33,125 nt of DNA from a bacterium. Lineage in GTDB: Bacteria; Bdellovibrionota_B; Oligoflexia; Oligoflexales; CAIYRB01. The notes beneath the pieces were generated by a model that was not told where the DNA came from, ran no database searches, and was given only the letters and a program-made list of their open reading frames with translations. This document shows, piece by piece, positions 1 through 15,053 of the stretch. The stretch covers positions 1-33,125 of the forward strand of contig OMIY01000234.1 of assembly GCA_900299215.1 (NCBI GenBank), read 5' to 3'. A program made the translations under genes and the position numbers. Positions within the stretch are counted from its first letter, which is position 1. Every line of letters begins with the position of its first letter.

Positions 1-1563
1 AACTTCGAACCTGAACTGAAGGTTTTAGTTAAACAAAAGGCCGACTTCACGAAGCCTGCTCGTCCGATCACTGAAAATGGTCGAAATTTTGTTAAAGCTT
101 GTGAGTACTATACTAAGGCCTATCCAAACGATAAGAAGAACGTAAAGTCTTGTGATACGTATTTAACTGAGATCTTTTATCGTAGCAACGATAGGAAGAT
201 GGCAGAAAAATACTTGCTTATGATGGCCAAGAAATACCCCAACGAAAGGGAAGGTCAGGAAGCAGTTGAGAACCTGATTCCACTTTACGGCAAAGACGAA
301 AAGGCTTTGGCGGCAGTTATCACCGATTTGCGTAAGATTCCGGCTTATCAAAAAGGTAAGATTGGCGAAAAGCTCGACAGCCTCGATCGTGGTTTAGCAG
401 TTGATGCCATCAAGTCCGACAAAAACGCATGTTCGAGAGCCAAGAAAGCTGAGGATCTCTTTAAGAAGAAGCCGACAGCTAAAGATAGTGACGCACTTAT
501 TTATAACGCAGCCTTGGATTGGGAAAAGTGCAACAAAGTCGCAGACGCTATCCGAGATTACTCGATTGTGCTCGAGAAGTTTCCGAAGTCTGAGGGGGCA
601 AAGCCTGCGCTCCTTCGTCTAGCAGTTTTGCATCAGAATCGCTTCGATCTTGGTGTGGCAGCTAAATTGTTCCGTGATTTCGCTAAGCGTTATCCGAAGG
701 AAAAAGAGACTATTACAGCCTTGGCTTATACATGTGAGGTCGAGGCGGCTCTCGGCGCTGAGGCTGCTGTTTCAAGCTGTTTGGAGTTTGCGCAAGCCGA
801 TCAAAACAGCGCGAAGGTGATTTTCTTCAGGATGTTGCGTACGGCCTTTTCGGCGGGCGAAGAGGGCCGCGTATCCCAGATTGCAAAAATCTTGGATGGA
901 AAGTTCAAGCTTACACCCGAAGAACGGATACAGGCCTACGCCGTTGTCATGAATACTCGTGGTGGATCTGCTGAGAGTGCGGCCAAAGAAATCATGACCA
1001 CCTTCCAAAAGTCAGGTGGTAACGTTTCCGGTGAGGCACTGCGGGCTGTCGGAGGCTTAGTGTTCCGCAGGGTCAACAACATTATAGGGCCGTTCCAAGG
1101 CATGCGATTGAAGGGCGGGACTGTGGATGCCTTGGCCGGCTCTATCCAGCAAAAAGTTGGAGCCTTAGGCAAGATTCAAGCTGCATATGACCAAGTGTTG
1201 GCGACAAAAGATGCTTACTGGGGTGTGGCTGCGTTTTATCAGTTAGGTTATGCGCGCGAATTAATTGCGCGCGATCTTGAGAATCCACCTGAGATTAAAG
1301 GCGCGCCGCATGCCGACGTTGTTAAGCAACTAGCCGGAGATGCACAGGCAGCTCGCAAAGAGGCGCTAGCATTTTACAATAAGGCCCTTGAGGCTGTCGG
1401 GAAATACTTGGTGTACAATGAATGGGCAGCAAAGGCACTTAGTGGTGTAGCGCGCATTCAAGGAAAGAAAATTAGCTTCGACGACCTGATAGTCCGCCCT
1501 GACTTTGTTGGTGCTGAGGTCCCCGAGAACGTTGCCCAAGAAGTCAAAGGTAAGGGGGATTGA
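1..1563 (+). CDS. TPR-rich envelope protein, 5' truncated by window edge
   Basis: The reading frame is open from base 1, so the ATG at 199 is internal and the real start lies outside the window; about 520 residues are visible. The sequence is almost all helical, Lys/Ala-rich and built of degenerate tetratricopeptide-like repeats, for example around the 'YTKAYPND', 'MAKKYPNE', 'VLEKFPKSEG' and 'FAKRYPKE' blocks. These repeats end in a Y/F-P pair, as in Sel1/YbgF-like TPRs. No catalytic motif is visible. Its stop overlaps the start of the next gene (TGATG), so the two are translationally coupled, and a GltG/PglI-like FHA protein follows. In myxobacteria, TPR proteins of the Glt/Agl gliding machine sit next to GltG; a periplasmic scaffold role is inferred from that context only. 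Confidence 0.8.
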   Translation, partial: NFEPELKVLVKQKADFTKPARPITENGRNFVKACEYYTKAYPNDKKNVKSCDTYLTEIFYRSNDRKMAEKYLLMMAKKYPNEREGQEAVENLIPLYGKDEKALAAVITDLRKIPAYQKGKIGEKLDSLDRGLAVDAIKSDKNACSRAKKAEDLFKKKPTAKDSDALIYNAALDWEKCNKVADAIRDYSIVLEKFPKSEGAKPALLRLAVLHQNRFDLGVAAKLFRDFAKRYPKEKETITALAYTCEVEAALGAEAAVSSCLEFAQADQNSAKVIFFRMLRTAFSAGEEGRVSQIAKILDGKFKLTPEERIQAYAVVMNTRGGSAESAAKEIMTTFQKSGGNVSGEALRAVGGLVFRRVNNIIGPFQGMRLKGGTVDALAGSIQQKVGALGKIQAAYDQVLATKDAYWGVAAFYQLGYARELIARDLENPPEIKGAPHADVVKQLAGDAQAARKEALAFYNKALEAVGKYLVYNEWAAKALSGVARIQGKKISFDDLIVRPDFVGAEVPENVAQEVKGKGD

Positions 1564-2738
1564 TGAGAGCCACCACCATCAAAACGATCCATATAGCTAC
1601 TGCATGGTCTGTCGCAGCCTGGCTTACTGCTTGTAGCAGCCCCGAGAAAAAAGACGGTCCGTCCAAGGCCGAGCAGGAACCAGTCAGTGCTGAGAAGGAC
1701 GAGGATGGACCTGAAAAGGCATCGGCAAACAGGGTTACGTTGACTAACAGTCTGGCAAATAACCCTCTAACCTCGCAAACGATCTCTCCAGCGAGGGCTG
1801 AGGCTGAAATCGCTAAATTCAAAGCCGCCAAGGGTGAACTTGCACTGCAGGGCGTAATTTCAACGCAACGCTTGGCACGAAAGAACTTAGGTGAGGTCAT
1901 TTCAACTGCGAAGAAGTTGGCCGACACTCAGATGGAAAAGGGTGCCGGGCGTCAGCTAAGCAGCGAAGTTAAGCTGGAAATTGCAATTGCTGCTTTGCAG
2001 TCACGAAATTTTGCTTTTGCTGAATACTTGTTGCAAGACCTTACCGACTCAAAAAATGCTCATGTCAAAGCTGGTGCTTACAATGCCATGGGTGTTGTCG
2101 CTCTCAAGGACGATCGTGTTCCTGAGGCGGTTCTCTACTTCAAAGAGGCTCTAAAAGCAGTGCCGAGTTATAAACCAGCTCTGATGAATCTCGGGTTTGT
2201 TGCCCTCAAGGGTGGCGAACTAGGCATGGCGAAGCAGCTTCTTGGTAAAATCGAAAACGATTGGTTTGTATCTTATGGTCTCATCTCGTTGCAGCGTCTT
2301 GATGGTGACGTTGGTGGGGCTCTTGAGCAGTGCGACAAAGTTCTTAAAAAGCAACCTGAGCACAGTGCAGCACTATTTAACTGCGGCTTGGTTGAATATC
2401 AAAATAAGAAAAACCTGGCGAAGGCAAAAGAATACTTCACCAAAGCTGGCAAGGCCAAACTTACAGCCGAGGGCTGGAATGAGAAGGCCTTCTTGATGGT
2501 TGCTCAGATAGATGCTGAAGAGGCCCAGATAAAGCGTGAGGAAATGCAGTCCAAGGCAGCTAAGGCGGCCGCGGATAAAGCTGCCGCCGACAAGGCCGCC
2601 ACCGAGAAGGCTGCCCACGACAAGACTAAAGGGCCTCCAGCACCGCCTGCAGGCGATAAGCCGAAAGCCAGTCCCCCCAAGGCTGAGGAAGGTGCAGATG
2701 GAGCCGATGAGGGAGAACCTGATGGTGGTGAAAAATGA
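1563..2738 (+). CDS. TPR lipoprotein (GltE/AglT-like context)
   Basis: Predicted outer- or inner-membrane lipoprotein of 391 residues. I chose the ATG at 1563 (TGATG overlap with the upstream stop, purine-rich AAGG/GGGG just before) over the TTG one codon earlier. A signal peptide ends in the lipobox L-T-A-C with the lipidated Cys at residue 24. Residues about 80-310 form TPR-like helical repeats ('AYNAMGVVALKDDRVPEA', 'ALMNLGFVALKGG', 'ALFNCGLVEYQNKKN'). The last 80 residues are a low-complexity Ala/Lys (A-A-A-D-K repeats) then Pro/Glu/Gly tail. It lies between another TPR protein and an FHA/TonB-like protein, which suggests a scaffold in a trans-envelope complex. A 139-base gap follows, so the third gene may have its own promoter. 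Confidence 0.85.
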   Translation: MRATTIKTIHIATAWSVAAWLTACSSPEKKDGPSKAEQEPVSAEKDEDGPEKASANRVTLTNSLANNPLTSQTISPARAEAEIAKFKAAKGELALQGVISTQRLARKNLGEVISTAKKLADTQMEKGAGRQLSSEVKLEIAIAALQSRNFAFAEYLLQDLTDSKNAHVKAGAYNAMGVVALKDDRVPEAVLYFKEALKAVPSYKPALMNLGFVALKGGELGMAKQLLGKIENDWFVSYGLISLQRLDGDVGGALEQCDKVLKKQPEHSAALFNCGLVEYQNKKNLAKAKEYFTKAGKAKLTAEGWNEKAFLMVAQIDAEEAQIKREEMQSKAAKAAADKAAADKAATEKAAHDKTKGPPAPPAGDKPKASPPKAEEGADGADEGEPDGGEK

Positions 2739-2877
2739 TGAGAACGTATGATTTTTGCTTTGAGTCTTTTCATTTCTTACGGCAAGCGGGATAATGAAAC
2801 TAATTACTCCCAACTACCGATTGAAGTTGACCGATCTGACCGTCTAAGTTCCGGTTCATAGCGCGGGAAGGATTCCC

Positions 2878-5028
2878 ATGTCTCTTGAGTTGCGATTCAC
2901 GATTCCAGGTCAAGTTGAGCGGCAGGTACCTGTCGACCAGCCTCCAATGAAAATTGGTGCGCTATTGTCGAACCAAGTGGTGCTTCGGGCGCCTGGTGTA
3001 GACCCCATTCATGCTCTGATCGAGGAGCCTAATCCTGGCGAGTATGTGGTCACTGACTTGGGGTCGGTGTCTGGCATTAAGGTAAACGATCAACATGTGG
3101 AAGTTGAGGCACCGCTAAAAGCCGGTGACGTTCTGACTGTCGGTACGATTCAAATACACGTGGTTGGGCCATCAGCAGCATCTGTAGTGCCTAAGGTCGA
3201 AAGTGGGGAGTCAGCCCGCTTTGGGGCTACCGTGAAAGCTCCTGAAAATCAGGAGCGGCGCGACGATAGCGGTGCGCAGCATAGTCCTCAGACTGGGGAG
3301 GCACGAGCCGAGGCTCCCGAGCGCCAATTGGATCTTTTATTTTCACCGCGCAAAGCTAAACCAAGTGGCGATGTACTTGAAGTCGTCGCCTACTGGGGTG
3401 ACACCGTCCTTGACGTCGAGCTGTTCCACCCGAGCACCAAAGGTTACGACCGAGTTACGATCGGTGACCCCACTAAGTCTCATTTGATCGCGGCCGGAAG
3501 TTCCGATATCGATGTGCATCCATTGGCAAGATTCAGTAGCGGTGGTTACAAGGTTTCGCTGATTGATGGCATGACCGCAAGGCTGCGTAAAGGCGGCAAG
3601 GTCGACAAGGTCACTAAGCCCGGTGAAATTTCCCTAGGAAGTCGTGATATCGCTCATATCAAATATGGAGCGGTTAGTTATTTCTTGATGTTTGTAAAGC
3701 CGCCACCACTCGAGTTTCCCAAAAGCGGCTTCCGAGATCCCTTTTTCTTCGGCCTTATGTCCGTCGCAATGTTGTTTTATATGATCCTTATTCCAATTGC
3801 TTGGACGCACGTTCCGGCAGAGAAGAAGGAAGACAAAGAGGATATTTGGCATGTGGTTTCGGTCCCTGAAAAGGAACCGGAGAAGGAAAAAGAAAAACCC
3901 AAGCCACCAGAAAAGCCAAAGCCAGAAGTCAAAATTGCTGAGGTCAAAACTCCGCCTAAAAAGCCGCCACCACCCAAGCCAAAGCCTGAGGTGAAGCCGG
4001 CTAAACCTACGGAGACGGAGAAGCCTGTTCAGACTAAACCAGTCGAGAAGCCGGTTGAACAGAAGAAGCCGACTGAGGTTTTGACGGAGAACAAGCCAAC
4101 ACCAGAACCCAAACCAGCAGAGGCCAAGCCGGCGGGACCACCGTCGACCAAGCCTAATTTAAATAAACTTTCGGCAGGAATGCCGTCGACTGGAGCCAAG
4201 GATCCTAACTTTAAAGCAGCCGGACCAACGTTGCCCAACACCGCCATTGGAAAATCGGGTGGTGCAGTGGGATCGGGGATGAATCAAGCCGGTGGTGCTA
4301 TTAAAGGCAACAACAAAGCCAGTGTCATGGGGGTCGAGGGAGCAAACAACGATAAGCCATCGGGTGTGAACTTGTCTAAACTTGGTTTAGGTGTAGGCAA
4401 GATCATGAGCAAGACCGGTGCTGGTGCGATTTCGTCCAACTTTAAAGACTCTGCTGGCGGTGCCGGCGGTGGGATGGGATCGGCAGGCAAAACCTACGGT
4501 CTAGGCGGTATCGGTTCTGGAAAATCACTGGGCCTTGCTGGTGCAGGTGGTGCCGTGAATAACTTCGGATCCGGATCCGGAGGATTGCTTAGCGGTCAAG
4601 GTGGTACCGGTGGCCGTGGTGGATCAGGACTTGGCCCAGGCTTTGGCAACGGTGGAGGTGCTGGAGGTGCTGGAGGTGCTGGTGGACACGGACGAGCTAA
4701 CGTAACCGTGCCAGCGGGCGATCCAGTTGTATCGGGTGGATTGACGTCACAAGAGATCATGGCAGTAATTCGTGCCAATCTTAACCAAATCCGTCACTGC
4801 TACGAACAGCTACTCCAGCGTTCACCGAGCGCCTCAGGTAAAATGGGTACTACCTTCGTCATAGATACAGGTGGACGCGTTTCTTCGGTATCTGTAGCGC
4901 AGGATACGATCAATGATGCCGTGATGCGTGGCTGTGTTACTGACAAGATGCGTCGGTGGGCGTTCCCCAAACCTCGCGGTGGCCAATCGGTTACGGTTAA
5001 TTACCCCTTCGTATTCAACCCGCTTTAA
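2878..5028 (+). CDS. FHA-domain / TonB-like trans-envelope protein (GltG/PglI-like)
   Basis: A 716-residue single-pass inner-membrane protein. Order: N-terminal FHA-like domain (about 1-95), linker, a second cytoplasmic beta-rich domain starting 'VLEVVAYWGDTVLDV' (about 165-280), one transmembrane helix (about 287-307), a Pro/Lys/Glu-rich rod (about 315-430), a Gly-rich flexible region (about 430-612), and a C-terminal AgmX/PglI-type TonB-like domain (about 619-716) with the hallmark 'IRHCYEQLLQR' and a second Cys ('RGCVTDKMRRW'). FHA domains bind phosphothreonine. The Pro-rich rod plus TonB-like tip would span the periplasm and touch outer-membrane partners. In Myxococcus, GltG has this design and is driven by a TolQR-like motor. 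SD GGGAAGG precedes the ATG. A terminator follows at 5038. Confidence 0.88.
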   Translation: MSLELRFTIPGQVERQVPVDQPPMKIGALLSNQVVLRAPGVDPIHALIEEPNPGEYVVTDLGSVSGIKVNDQHVEVEAPLKAGDVLTVGTIQIHVVGPSAASVVPKVESGESARFGATVKAPENQERRDDSGAQHSPQTGEARAEAPERQLDLLFSPRKAKPSGDVLEVVAYWGDTVLDVELFHPSTKGYDRVTIGDPTKSHLIAAGSSDIDVHPLARFSSGGYKVSLIDGMTARLRKGGKVDKVTKPGEISLGSRDIAHIKYGAVSYFLMFVKPPPLEFPKSGFRDPFFFGLMSVAMLFYMILIPIAWTHVPAEKKEDKEDIWHVVSVPEKEPEKEKEKPKPPEKPKPEVKIAEVKTPPKKPPPPKPKPEVKPAKPTETEKPVQTKPVEKPVEQKKPTEVLTENKPTPEPKPAEAKPAGPPSTKPNLNKLSAGMPSTGAKDPNFKAAGPTLPNTAIGKSGGAVGSGMNQAGGAIKGNNKASVMGVEGANNDKPSGVNLSKLGLGVGKIMSKTGAGAISSNFKDSAGGAGGGMGSAGKTYGLGGIGSGKSLGLAGAGGAVNNFGSGSGGLLSGQGGTGGRGGSGLGPGFGNGGGAGGAGGAGGHGRANVTVPAGDPVVSGGLTSQEIMAVIRANLNQIRHCYEQLLQRSPSASGKMGTTFVIDTGGRVSSVSVAQDTINDAVMRGCVTDKMRRWAFPKPRGGQSVTVNYPFVFNPL

Positions 5029-6999: not shown

Positions 7000-7187
7000 T
7001 TAGGTTGCTCGCATCGGTCCTGAATAAGCACTTTTAATGCCTAGACTTGTGACTAAAATTTAGCCAACTTTAACACCCCCCTTCGGAAGCAGCTAAGCGC
7101 CTAATTTAAAATATATTTTTTTTATTTCTAAAGTGTGCCTGGGACCTGGCCGATGACCCTCCATAAGTACCCGATTGCAAGGTCTTT

Positions 7188-10100
7188 GTGAGGTCGTCCA
7201 TGGAACCATGCGCCATACCTGTTTTAGCAAGATTTGCAGGAGCACTGCTGGCTTTGGTTGCTTGGTCAACGCCGTCCGCTGCTGGATCTCGTGACTTATC
7301 TTACGGCGGGCGGTTGACTGATTCAGGCGGGGTGGCAATCAGCGGTCCCGTAGATTTACAAATCCAATTTTTTAACTCGTCGACAGCAGGAACCGCATTA
7401 CTGGAGACTCCGTTATCTTTTCCCGGAGTTGCTCTGGTTGATGGAGTTTTTCAGATCACCATTCCGACTGCAGTTGCCAACACTGGGTCCTTCATGGATG
7501 GTAGTAGTGACACTTGGATTGAGGTCAAAGACGTCACCAATAATGTCACCTATCCCCGTCAGCAAATGATGGCTGCACCTTTGGCCCTCAAGGTACCGAT
7601 CGATACCAATGTTTTAGCCTTTGACGCCCAAGGCAAGCTTGGTCTCAGTCCGACTTTTCAACCGAATAAAATTGCTGGATTTCCAGTTGCTCCCACTCAA
7701 CCAAGCGCAGGCCAAGTGCTAGCTTGGGACGGTGTGAATTCGGCTTGGAAGCCGGCTAACATGGAATCACAGGTCTCTGGAACCGTCTCAGGTAATCTTA
7801 CCGTCCAGGGCAATAACAGTACTGCAAACAAATTGGTTCTAAATGATAAGGGAACGAACAACAGTGTGTCCCTGAAGGCCCCTGATAATTTGTCGGGTAG
7901 CGTCACTTTTACCATGCCCTCTACAAGCGGTATGCCTGGGCAGGTCATGGCCACAGATGGGTCGGGAAATCTGACCTGGGTCGCTGGTGCAGCCATAAGT
8001 GGAGTTGCTGGAGGTGATCTTACAGGATCGTATCCTAACCCAATGCTTGTTCAGACGGGAATCGCCCCCGGAACGTACACAAAATTACGAGTCGACAATC
8101 GAGGCCGGGCACTCCAAGGTGGGTCGTTGGGGTCAAACGACATACCCCCACTCAATGCATCCATCATAAACTCCGGATTTTTCGGTGTCCCATTTGGCGG
8201 TACTGGATCACAAAGCTTCACAAACAACGGTGTCATGCTTGGAAATGGTACCGGCAACTTATTCAGTACGTCGGCGGGTGCGCCATTTCAATCCCTGGTG
8301 GTTCCAGGCGGTGGAGGCGCACCAAGTTTTTCTGCACTGAATCTTAGCCAGCCAGCGGCAGTGACAGGTATTTTACCAATGAACCGCGGTGGCACCGGAG
8401 TTAATTCCACTGCAGTTTTTCCAGCATCTGGATTAATTGTGACGGATGATAGCGCTCTCACCTTAAAAAACAAAAGCCTCGATTCGCCGGTTATCACAAA
8501 CACTGGCTCTACAGGTGCCGCAGCGATCAGCTTTGAAACAGTAGGTACAAAAAAATGGGCTTTGGGAGTGGTGCCGGGTTCAGACCCTAATGTCGCCCTT
8601 GCAAACAGTTTCTACGTTGCTGATAAGGATAGCAATGCCAGCAGGTTGGTAGTCAATGCCAGTGGAAACGTGGGTATCGGTGGCGCAGGTACCTCTGCTT
8701 TACTTGAAGTAGCTGACTACGGGAATTTGCGCGTAAGTGGATTTGCATCCATTCCCAACGCTCAGGGTACCTACCTCTCCTGGAACCGCTCCGGTGGTAC
8801 TGGTGAGACCAACTTTGTAAATCACCGCGGCCAAGGCACAGGCGGCTTTACCTTCGATAATACTGCAACTGGTGCATCCATGACGCGATTGATGACTATC
8901 AATAGCAGTGGCAACGTTGGGATAGGTACGATGTTTCCAATGGCTGCGTTACATGTCAACGGCACCACCAATGGGCCAACTTCTTCCTATCTGAGAAACT
9001 CAAGTAACGGCACAAGTGCCTATACCATGTTTGCTTTGGGCAATGATTTGGCCCAAAATAAGCTTGTTTTGTTTACGAATAGTTCGACCAGAACTTTAGA
9101 TGGCGGAGCTGATAATTCTACCATTCGCACCGATTCAGGTGATTTGCATTTAGGTGCTGGTGGTGGACAGAAGATGACTATTCAGGCATCAACAGGCATG
9201 GTTGGTGTCGGTACGACTAATCCTGTCAGTAGATTAAGTGTGGTTGGCTCTGACAGTATCATATCCTCACAAGCAACGTCCCTGACGTCTTGGTCCGGGT
9301 TAAACTTATACAAGAACGACTCAACTCTCACCGCTAGTTTTGCTTACGGCAACGGAAGTGCTGGTATCTGGGCGGATCAAGTCGCGATTGCCTCGCGAAA
9401 TAACACGGCACCTATTGTCTTTGCTGTAGGAGTGACTCCAACAGAAAAGATGCGCATCAGCCAAAGTGGTAACGTAGGTATCGGCATCGCAGCGCCGGCG
9501 GCCTTGCTCGATGTCAATGGCACCGTAAGATCGAGAGCTGGTGGATTTCAATTTCCCGACGGCACCATTTTAACCACAGCGCCAGGTTCGGGCACGGTCA
9601 CCAATCAAACAAGCACGACCAACATCAATTTTGCGTCCGATACGGCGAGTAGCGGCAATTCAGCGTACAATATTTCATTCAGCACTAGGGGCTCACAGCG
9701 TATGGTTGTTGCCAATACGGGTGGTATCGGTATCGGTACTGCATCACCTGTTTCTGCTTTAGACGTAGCGGGTGGGCAGTCGATAGGTACCTATGCCGGT
9801 GTCACCAGTGCTCCGGCAAACGGACTGATCGTCAGCGGTAATGTTGGGATCGGTACGACTACTCCCAGCGCTAATCTTGAAGTTAACGGGAGCATCAAAT
9901 TCTCGGGCGACTCACGACAGATTAGCCGAGCACCTAACGTTATATTTGTCCCCGACGTTCGTACTGGTTGTCCTCCAACCTTGGCTGCGAATACGGATAT
10001 TCAGTCGTATACCTTTTCACTCAACAGGCCTGCGGCTATCAAGGTCGAGGTCGATACTGTTGCAATTTATACTGCAAGGGTTGATCATCTTTTGTTCGTG

Positions 10101-10283
10101 GACGGGATTAATGTAAAAAATCAGCTTACTGCTGCTGTAAATGCATCGTGGCAGCCAGTACACCTAGCTTGGGGCGGCATCCTAGCAGCAGGTAGCCACA
10201 CGATATCCTATCGGTCTGGGCAAGCTAGCACTACCGGCTGTGGGTCTCAGTGGGGTGCTATGATGATCACGGTATTCGAGTAA
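7188..10283 (+). CDS. Large secreted surface protein with tail-fibre-like repeats
   Basis: A 1031-residue Gly/Ser/Thr/Asn-rich protein with a Sec signal peptide (hydrophobic 'FAGALLALVAW', cleavage near 'PSAAG'). Start is GTG 7188 (AAGG five bases upstream) or the in-frame ATG at 7200 (GAGG six bases upstream). An N-terminal beta domain ('LSYGGRLTDSGG', 'VDLQIQFFNS') is followed by phage-tail-fibre-like 'GGDLTGSYPNP' and two 'GGTG' segments. Six copies of a motif G-N-V-G-I-G-T-x-x-P-x-A-x-L-x-V-x-G then occur near residues 490, 575, 670, 760, 845 and 884. A C-terminal roughly 110-residue beta-sandwich-like domain has two Cys. No S74 chaperone domain or enzyme motif. Predatory and relative genomes often encode such proteins; an adhesin or fibre role is inferred. 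The pseudopilin-like gene lies 114 bases downstream. Confidence 0.8.
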   Translation: MRSSMEPCAIPVLARFAGALLALVAWSTPSAAGSRDLSYGGRLTDSGGVAISGPVDLQIQFFNSSTAGTALLETPLSFPGVALVDGVFQITIPTAVANTGSFMDGSSDTWIEVKDVTNNVTYPRQQMMAAPLALKVPIDTNVLAFDAQGKLGLSPTFQPNKIAGFPVAPTQPSAGQVLAWDGVNSAWKPANMESQVSGTVSGNLTVQGNNSTANKLVLNDKGTNNSVSLKAPDNLSGSVTFTMPSTSGMPGQVMATDGSGNLTWVAGAAISGVAGGDLTGSYPNPMLVQTGIAPGTYTKLRVDNRGRALQGGSLGSNDIPPLNASIINSGFFGVPFGGTGSQSFTNNGVMLGNGTGNLFSTSAGAPFQSLVVPGGGGAPSFSALNLSQPAAVTGILPMNRGGTGVNSTAVFPASGLIVTDDSALTLKNKSLDSPVITNTGSTGAAAISFETVGTKKWALGVVPGSDPNVALANSFYVADKDSNASRLVVNASGNVGIGGAGTSALLEVADYGNLRVSGFASIPNAQGTYLSWNRSGGTGETNFVNHRGQGTGGFTFDNTATGASMTRLMTINSSGNVGIGTMFPMAALHVNGTTNGPTSSYLRNSSNGTSAYTMFALGNDLAQNKLVLFTNSSTRTLDGGADNSTIRTDSGDLHLGAGGGQKMTIQASTGMVGVGTTNPVSRLSVVGSDSIISSQATSLTSWSGLNLYKNDSTLTASFAYGNGSAGIWADQVAIASRNNTAPIVFAVGVTPTEKMRISQSGNVGIGIAAPAALLDVNGTVRSRAGGFQFPDGTILTTAPGSGTVTNQTSTTNINFASDTASSGNSAYNISFSTRGSQRMVVANTGGIGIGTASPVSALDVAGGQSIGTYAGVTSAPANGLIVSGNVGIGTTTPSANLEVNGSIKFSGDSRQISRAPNVIFVPDVRTGCPPTLAANTDIQSYTFSLNRPAAIKVEVDTVAIYTARVDHLLFVDGINVKNQLTAAVNASWQPVHLAWGGILAAGSHTISYRSGQASTTGCGSQWGAMMITVFE

Positions 10284-10397
10284 ATTCCGGACTTTAGCAG
10301 GCAATAACTAAATTAATTCCAGAAATTTCCGATTCATGGACGAAGTCCAACTTCCATGGCCTGAGCATCCTGCATCCAAAATTGAGGATCAAAAAAC

Positions 10398-11375
10398 TTG
10401 GCAAACGGCTCTGCAAAATACCTAGGGGCACCTTCGCTGCTTAAATCTGAGCAAGGGATATCTTTGATTGCCACCCTTGTGGCGGTGGCGGTCATGGGGA
10501 TTTTGGCCTCAGTTTTGACTCAGCTGATGACAAATATGATGCGGACTTCTCAGCATCTAGAGATCAAAGGCGATCGGCAGGCCTTGAAACAGTTGATTCT
10601 TGAAAGTCTGTCCTGCAGTGAGACGTTTAAACCAACGGCTGAGGAGGTTTGCAGGCAGCCTCGGATTACCCTCAAAGGCAAGCACCCAGATGGTACTCCG
10701 TTTGACATCATTTCGAGTGCCGGTAGCAAATATGGTAGGTGGACCTACCGTGCTGAGTGTAATTCCAGTAAGCAGGTTGTGGTGCGAGCAACCTTGGCCA
10801 AATCTTTGTCGGCCATCAGTTCTAATAACAGGGATGATTTCTTACCCTATCCGTTGAACAAAAAGCAGTATACTTGGAGTGCGGATGAGAGCTTGGTATT
10901 TCCAAGTGGCACCTCCCTGTGCGGAACAGGCTATAAATTGGTTAATATCGTTACTTCTACCTATCAAGGTCAATGCTCATATCCAGCAATCTTAAGTCCG
11001 TTTTCGATTACCTGTGGTTCGGTGCAGGAAATAGATCTTGGTGGTCGTCCGATTCGAGTAGAAATCATGGTGATGAATGATAACCCGTATATTCCCGCTA
11101 TTCCGGTAACCTTTGTCAAAACTGACTCAATGCCAGATTGGCGGACAGTAGTTTATAGACGAGAAGAAAGCGTGCCTGCCATAGTATTGCCCTTCAACCC
11201 ACTTAGTATGATCACCAATATTGCCCTAGCCTTGACTCAGCATCACCAAGGGATACTGTTCACGGATAAAGGCTTTAAGGTTAGGGCTGCGGCGAACGTG
11301 AAACTGCGGGATTTAATAACTGGAGGAGCCTTTATAAATACCCGCAATCACTTCACGGCCTACGTAGAGAAGTGA
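10398..11375 (+). CDS. Pseudopilin-like protein with type IV prepilin leader
   Basis: A 325-residue protein. The TTG start (AGGAT about 10 bases upstream) gives a short leader ending 'KSEQG' and then 'ISLIATLVAVAVMGILASVL', the prepilin-peptidase signature and hydrophobic helix of type II secretion/type IV pilus (minor) pilins. The residue at +5 after the cleavage Gly is Ala instead of the usual Glu, a feature of some minor pseudopilins placed at pilus tips. The remaining 280 residues are an unrecognised globular domain with several Cys (residues about 72-85 and 170-215), probably disulfide-bonded. It follows the large surface protein, suggesting that the two form one exported assembly. It converges on the DedA gene with a single base between the stops. 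Confidence 0.72.
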   Translation: MANGSAKYLGAPSLLKSEQGISLIATLVAVAVMGILASVLTQLMTNMMRTSQHLEIKGDRQALKQLILESLSCSETFKPTAEEVCRQPRITLKGKHPDGTPFDIISSAGSKYGRWTYRAECNSSKQVVVRATLAKSLSAISSNNRDDFLPYPLNKKQYTWSADESLVFPSGTSLCGTGYKLVNIVTSTYQGQCSYPAILSPFSITCGSVQEIDLGGRPIRVEIMVMNDNPYIPAIPVTFVKTDSMPDWRTVVYRREESVPAIVLPFNPLSMITNIALALTQHHQGILFTDKGFKVRAAANVKLRDLITGGAFINTRNHFTAYVEK

Positions 11376-11376
11376 G

Positions 11377-14057: not shown

Positions 14058-15053
14058 ATGACTAAAGTCAAACTCTCCAATGCTGAAAAGGCTGCAATTG
14101 TCCTGCTGAGCTTGGGAGAAGAAGTGGCCAGTCAGATTATGAGTCAGATGAACCCGGCTGAGGTCAACCGGGTCGCCATGGCCATGAGCAGTCTAGGTCG
14201 TGTCGAGAACGACGTCGTGCAGCTGGTAGCAGGTGAGTTCTACTCTAACTTAAGTAATCACAAACCACTTTTGACGGGCACTCCTGCTGGGACCAAGCGC
14301 ATTTTGCAAATGGCTGGTCGTGTAACAGAGGCTGATGCCATTGAGAGTGAGGCAGCCTTAGCTTCCCATGAATTATCGGACCTTTTGAGTCAGATGACTG
14401 CCGAAGCATTAGCTAAATGGCTGCAGACTGAGGCTCCGCAAACCTTGGCTGTGGTGCTGGCACACTGTGCTCCCGCGCAAGCTGGTAAGTCGGTGAGTCT
14501 AATGCCAGCCAATTTGCAAATCGAGGCTGTTCACAGGTTGGCGAAGATGGGAGACGTCGACCTAAACAGTCTCAAGGCCATCACGGAGACATTGAAAGAA
14601 ATTCGCAGCCGTCCCCATGGGGAAGCTCATGCCATCGGTGGTGTGACTAAGCTGGTCGGGCTCTTAAATGCGATGCCTCAGGCTGAAGCTGAACGGTTAA
14701 TGTCGGAGATTGAAGGTCGGGATCCCGCGCTTGCAGCAACACTTAAGCAGCAAATGTTTACCTTCAGTGATCTTACAAGGTTGAGCGATCGCGATATGCA
14801 GACACTTCTCGCACAAGTCCCAGCGGCAGCGCTAAGGTTAGCGCTAAAGCAGGCTGATGATGCAGTGAGTCAGCATATTTACAGAAATCTCTCTGAGCGT
14901 GCCGCTAAGCTCTTACGTGATGACGTCGCTGCTTTACCAAAAACTCGACTTCAGGACGTGCAAGCAGCGCAGCAGCAGCTCGCTGATTTAGCCCAGCAAA
15001 TGGCAGCTCAGGGAAAAATCACAATCATGAGTAAAGATGAGGTTTATGTTTAG
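14058..15053 (+). CDS. fliG: Flagellar motor switch protein FliG
   Basis: A 331-residue protein, exactly the length of E. coli FliG. It couples rotor to stator and, with FliM/FliN, forms the switch complex. The N-terminal domain starts 'LSNAEKAAIVLLSLGEE'. The middle domain has E-A-P-Q at 125-128, where the family has E-H-P-Q, a FliM contact site. The hinge Gly-Gly is at 194-195. The C-terminal torque helix retains all charged residues known to matter: K264, R281, D288, D289, R297 at the same numbers as E. coli. C-terminal 'KDEVYV' matches the family end. ATG start with GGGAGG. No other flagellar gene is present, so this is an orphan copy. It overlaps the convergent glycerol dehydrogenase by 29 bases. 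Confidence 0.93.
   Translation: MTKVKLSNAEKAAIVLLSLGEEVASQIMSQMNPAEVNRVAMAMSSLGRVENDVVQLVAGEFYSNLSNHKPLLTGTPAGTKRILQMAGRVTEADAIESEAALASHELSDLLSQMTAEALAKWLQTEAPQTLAVVLAHCAPAQAGKSVSLMPANLQIEAVHRLAKMGDVDLNSLKAITETLKEIRSRPHGEAHAIGGVTKLVGLLNAMPQAEAERLMSEIEGRDPALAATLKQQMFTFSDLTRLSDRDMQTLLAQVPAAALRLALKQADDAVSQHIYRNLSERAAKLLRDDVAALPKTRLQDVQAAQQQLADLAQQMAAQGKITIMSKDEVYV

Follow-up and report, generated by a model that had tools for sequence, protein, structure and literature searches.

Fibre proteins of the mosaic adhesive trimer (MAT) family were described in Bdellovibrio bacteriovorus in 2024, with 21 members in HD100 that, as laid out in that report, share a leader and a conserved domain of ~130 residues, followed by a trimeric shaft and by tips of various kinds (PMC10769870). 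One of them, Bd2133, has been solved, and the TNF-like tips described there include those of Bd2439, which binds N-acetylglucosamine (GlcNAc), and Bd2734 (PMC10769870). Variable ends on a common base are known among minor pilins: the PilV proteins of conjugative plasmids such as TP114 are described as having a conserved base and variable C-terminal adhesive ends (PMC9045228), and the account of the Kil (Tad) pilus tip of Myxococcus xanthus includes several minor pilins with variable domains facing the prey (PMC12075869). Here we compare with these systems two adjacent genes, one for a 1031-residue fibre and one for a 325-residue pilin-like protein, on contig OMIY01000234.1 of an uncultured member of the Oligoflexales (GCA_900299215.1; the window is the whole stretch analyzed, positions 1 to 33,125). 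An earlier note, made from the sequence alone, had read them as one module, an adhesin at a pilus tip or displayed by a type II secretion system (T2SS). We favor, at a probability of roughly three in four, two separate cell-surface proteins that are neighbors by chance, a MAT fibre and an orphan minor pilin. Both open reading frames (ORFs) are real, as the note had stated, and the likelier start of the fibre gene is an ATG at 7200, preceded by GAGG.

7188–10283, + strand: fibre ORF, 1031 residues, GTG start; putative MAT-family fibre protein
10398–11375, + strand: pilin-like ORF, 325 residues, TTG start; candidate divergent minor pilin or pseudopilin

The fibre protein and the MAT family

By its sequence, the 1031-residue protein appears to be a new member of the known MAT fibre family. 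A phmmer search of the PDB matched its shaft to Bd2133 (8ond, E = 1.4e-17, residues 564–834), which itself has 1031 residues and a homologous shaft. Three further PDB matches, at E = 2.3e-5 to 0.0015 and all deposited under the name "Cell wall surface anchor family protein", have entry numbers that suggest an origin in the same study as Bd2133; a fifth match, a heme-binding protein (E = 0.02), is weak and was set aside. Pfam and NCBIfam held no family for the fibre protein. Its parts are as follows.

7188–7283, + strand: putative Sec-type signal peptide, residues 1–32, recognized by eye from an Arg, a hydrophobic stretch and small residues ahead of G33
7284–7682, + strand: conserved MAT N-domain, ~residues 33–165; 30–52% identity to the window fibre in alignment A1 of 14 sequences
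7683–9905, + strand: repetitive shaft, ~residues 166–906, with six motifs and the PDB matches; probably trimeric
8664, 8910, 9195, 9468, 9720 and 9837, + strand: starts of the shaft motifs, G-x-[VI]-G-[IV]-G
9906–10280, + strand: C-terminal tip, residues 907–1031 (125 residues), predicted TNF/C1q-like lectin head with Cys 928 and 1018

Like the Bdellovibrio MATs in the layout published for them, the window fibre has a putative leader, a domain following it, a long shaft, many paralogues and exchangeable tips. A profile search at class level found the N-domain in at least 11 of 58 genomes, with at least 21 matches in the window's own genome (G000) and 6–47 in each of five congeners, among the matches listed. 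The loci fetched from the own genome hold 19 ORFs with the N-domain, including the window fibre. The N-domain is a candidate counterpart of the conserved domain of the HD100 MATs, the solved chains that were matched spanning shaft and tip only. The fibre differs from the Bdellovibrio MATs in belonging to another lineage: a near-identical Bd2133 occurs in 0 of the 58 genomes searched. A Pfam scan of the window fibre detected no S74 domain, which makes it NS74-like among the MATs.

The six repeats noticed earlier correspond to six copies of the motif, at residues 493, 575, 670, 761, 845 and 884; in 2000 shuffles of the protein the motif appeared 0.04 times on average and never more than once. 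They are spaced 82, 95, 91, 84 and 39 residues apart; the final drop to 39 had been reported correctly, and the range of 85–95 given for the others was slightly off (82 and 84). A proline follows three to four residues after the motif in five of the six cases, and the motifs are similar, not exactly equal, to the MAT capping-loop consensus as printed in PMC10769870.

The fibre also contains the phage-tail-fibre-like blocks that had been pointed out (phrog_9942, E = 3.9e-16; phrog_18345, E = 4.8e-14). These matches to PHROG tail-fibre families speak for the remnant of a prophage tail fibre, an origin that we nevertheless regard as extremely improbable: no phage gene was found among the window proteins scanned, the best PDB match is a MAT fibre, and the putative signal peptide, the MAT N-domain and the large paralogue family all argue against it.

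MAT N-domains also occur in frames of other sizes. Those at G001:C18:44535-45050, G001:C20:14236-14748 and G002:C24:27823-28356 lie in frames of 15,097, 12,490 and 9,481 residues, which are giant fibre-like proteins. Four frames of 135–171 residues (G004:C223:50755-51234, G004:C181:5121-5603, G004:C91:35945-36424 and G004:C249:8755-9135) are possible stand-alone anchor domains, unless contig ends cut them. A MAT-type ORF of the own genome (L030, G000:C43, 2466–7736, − strand) contains at least three times a shaft block of ~255 residues, which matches residues 197–451 of the window fibre.

A predicted lectin-like head at the fibre tip

The tip has no sequence relatives in the 57 other genomes, being unique among the 58, and a PDB sequence search with it gave nothing useful. 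AlphaFold2, run on the single sequence, predicted a beta sandwich with a predicted local distance difference test score (pLDDT) of 70.7 and a predicted template modelling score (pTM) of 0.66. The top entry of a VIA-align fold search was the C-domain of Pgp3 (Z 12.3, root-mean-square deviation (rmsd) 2.5, 111 residues aligned), with the N-domain lectin of Bc2L-C (Z 12.2, rmsd 2.4, 114 aligned) and the PLTL lectin (Z 11.8, rmsd 2.1, 110 aligned) close behind and the BclA and C1q heads next. We take all of these to be trimeric TNF/C1q-like heads. The Bc2L-C and PLTL lectins share the predicted fold of the tip at 10–14% identity. The TNF-like tips of MATs were not among the best 50 VIA-align entries, which excludes nothing.

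A tip of this type is already known from the published descriptions of Bd2439 and Bd2734 (PMC10769870). Because the fold matches are TNF-like and MATs have TNF-like tips, that of Bd2439 belonging to a GlcNAc-binding fibre, glycan binding would be the likeliest function of the modelled tip. MAT family membership and the lectin-like tip together support the earlier view of the protein as a surface fibre and adhesin.

A divergent pilin-like protein with hypervariable ends

The second protein was rightly called pilin-like. From its sequence it appears to be a divergent minor pilin or pseudopilin of a lineage-wide family, with relatives in 20 of 43 genomes of the order by a single-sequence search and in 27 of 58 genomes of the class by a profile search. 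It has three parts.

10398–10457, + strand: prepilin leader, residues 1–20, conserved across the family together with G20; predicted cut after G20
10458–10940, + strand: hydrophobic N-helix and globular base, to ~residue 181, with Cys 73, 85, 121 and 175
10941–11372, + strand: hypervariable C-terminal end, residues 182–325; ends alike in 18 of 666 member pairs

The leader, KSEQG/ISLIA, is prepilin-like and has Ala at +5, as the note had observed. Of the 37 members taken, 36 have G or A at −1, and the pattern did not parse the remaining one. Glu occupies +5 in 16 of the 36 parsed members and is absent from it in 20, and Ala at this position is common within the family. Glu at +5 is usual in major pilins, but some minor pilins can do without it. 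Since it is missing from the tip pseudopilin GspK too, Ala at +5 does not exclude a minor pilin. The label "Cys-rich" overstated the composition (6 Cys in 325 residues), although four of these are conserved across the family: in alignment A6, which has 36 members, Cys 73, 85, 121 and 175 are present in 33, 35, 35 and 36, respectively. One prepilin peptidase was matched in the genome (PF01478, E = 1.3e-19).

We compared the ends by blastp, with a cut-off of 1e-3, among 37 members whose module is complete and whose end spans 60 residues or more. The module links 514 of the 666 member pairs and the module without its helix 243, as compared to 18 linked by the C-terminal end; members were selected by the module, which favors the module-link counts, yet the gap to the ends is wide even so. 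Each of the 18 pairs with similar ends is alike in the module as well, and orthologues or tandem copies account for most of them; divergence therefore explains much of the end variability. Divergence alone does not explain one member from genome G019 (L114:10040-11074, + strand, also in L092; G019:C7), a pilin-family ORF that ends in a phage tail-collar fibre domain. This domain covers residues 200–344 of 345 in the same ORF, with a strong PHROG match (phrog_1800, E = 1.6e-21) and a Pfam collar score of 21.5, under the cut-off of 24. Pfam and PHROG scans of the pilin ends gave nothing convincing beyond the collar domain, and among the open-licence papers listed in our searches none was seen to describe a tail-collar domain on a pilin. 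The residual novelty of the locus is this pilin family, one member of which has a phage tail-collar fibre domain.

The pilin need not be an adhesin. An assembly-priming minor pilin or an accessory T2SS pseudopilin, with a variable end that merely diverges fast, would fit genes that are orphans, sometimes in tandem, with few shared neighbors; the recurring neighbors of the family loci form only small clusters, and no pilus machinery was recognized among them. The same reading agrees with the NCBIfam matches of the pilin, which are weak and solely to pseudopilins and competence minor pilins, and with the lack of a known binding domain in most ends. The collar domain of the G019 member and ends far more variable than the base argue against it, and we place its chances somewhat short of even. 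It bears on the pilin only and can hold alongside the MAT fibre of the reading that we favor.

A more far-reaching possibility, which we consider rather unlikely, is an undescribed mosaic family of tip pilins, in which a constant four-Cys base, plausibly with two disulphides, would bear hypervariable, exchangeable recognition ends in parallel to the MATs, the insertion described below being a recognition cassette of both. A constant base with variable ends is shared with PilV as described in PMC9045228, and an adhesive role is what we infer here. Unlike the PilV shufflon in that description, the window pilin family varies between genes and between species, its neighbors having been compared for recurrence only. 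The Kil pilins, in the account of PMC12075869, are encoded as tip complexes with the Tad system, whereas pilins of the window type are orphan genes.

The fibre and pilin genes as a pair

Among the 64 MAT ORFs in the fetched loci, a family pilin lies within three genes only at the window's own ORF; the 3′ end is intact in 38 of the 64, and a downstream gene is visible in 35. None of the 33 pilin loci fetched outside the window contains a MAT N-domain ORF. The pilin profile, at E = 1e-8, had no match in the MAT-bearing genomes G018 (at least 30 MAT matches), G005 (at least 6) and G031 (at least 1). The own genome has 16 N_methyl matches, and a contig is shared with a MAT match only on C234, although many of its MAT contigs stop within the gene. 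MAT fibres have a putative Sec-type leader of their own, recognized by eye, in addition to the conserved N-domain. By these comparisons fibre and pilin are not a conserved functional unit, which is an outcome that the earlier note itself had named as refuting its reading. The paired pilus-tip or T2SS-displayed adhesin of that note is not supported, although either protein by itself could plausibly serve as a surface adhesin.

We rejected a conserved MAT-pilin module after finding no second instance at the other MAT or pilin loci fetched. A loose prepilin rule had also flagged neighbors of seven other MAT ORFs (L041, L043, L046, L170, L180, L184 and L189) and the window's VTT gene; the family model matched none of them, and on inspection these look like ordinary membrane or signal segments.

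An insertion between the CLC and VTT genes

7000–11376, no strand assigned: insertion of ~4.4 kb with both genes, relative to three congeners

In three congeners (G001, G002 and G004), the CLC channel gene and the VTT-domain gene that flank the pair in the window were matched by tblastn at 70–87% identity. They converge there, their matched ends being 8, 20 and 20 bp apart, and the CLC gene of G004 is cut by a contig end. Neither the fibre nor the pilin gene is present at this site. Because the CLC and VTT genes abut in these congeners, the fibre and pilin genes lie in one insertion. Two other congeners, G003 and G005, are uninformative, their CLC and VTT genes lying away from the thioredoxin-like gene. 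No target-site duplication was visible by eye, and the GC content is host-like, with no foreign composition seen at the insertion. The two genes may have arrived in one event or in two.

Several observations weigh against two unrelated neighbors. The genes lie on the same strand, separated by 114 bp in which no terminator-like site was seen, and a single insertion that contains these two genes and no others, missing from three congeners, fits a two-gene cassette as well. MAT ORFs of the own genome often run off contig ends, which hides their neighbors. On the side of the pilin, the Pfam N_methyl match is under its cut-off (16.9 versus 21.2 bits, E = 0.0048), and an AlphaFold2 model from six sequences, with a helix at 16–55 followed by strands, is poor (pLDDT 41.7). 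A lineage-specific recognition cassette of two genes would account for the arrangement, with the fibre presented or secreted by the minor pilin or with both proteins acting where a single contact is made, and what PMC10769870 says of the MAT N-domain, that its surface anchor is unknown and that type IV pili are possibly of interest, is in its favor. The absence of such a neighbor from every other MAT ORF of the 64, of MAT ORFs from the 33 other pilin loci, and of the pilin family from MAT-bearing G018 and G005 at the threshold used makes this quite improbable, leaving room for a lineage-specific link between fibre and pilin.

Other genes in the window

Upstream, at 199–5028, are genes that resemble the gliding motility genes GltE (weakly) and GltG. 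The GltG-like match (E = 9.5e-36) is under its cut-off, while an AgmX/PglI C-terminal domain exceeds its own. A complete FliG with C, M and N domains is encoded at 14058–15053 (+ strand), and no other flagellar gene was noticed in the scanned parts of the window.

Two candidate recognition proteins

What the earlier note observed is thus confirmed, and its interpretation is partly supported. As two separate surface proteins, the MAT fibre and the orphan minor pilin would work as follows. The fibre would be exported through its Sec signal peptide and held at the cell surface by the conserved N-domain; a trimeric beta-helical shaft would extend it, and the TNF/C1q-like head would cap it, probably binding glycans on other cells. 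The pilin, once cut by the prepilin peptidase, would sit at or close to the tip of a type IV filament or T2SS pseudopilus and expose its variable C-terminal end. The two genes share one insertion between the CLC channel gene and the VTT-domain gene. The sequence families, the predicted tip fold, the insertion and the lack of conservation of the pair have direct support.

The adjacent pilin is real, yet it is not a conserved partner of the fibre. MAT-type fibres are greatly expanded in this uncultured genus, as the N-domain counts listed for the five congeners indicate, which places fibres for the recognition of prey or partners in a further lineage. These genomes contain a second candidate repertoire for recognition, the pilin family, whose base is constant and whose ends are hypervariable.

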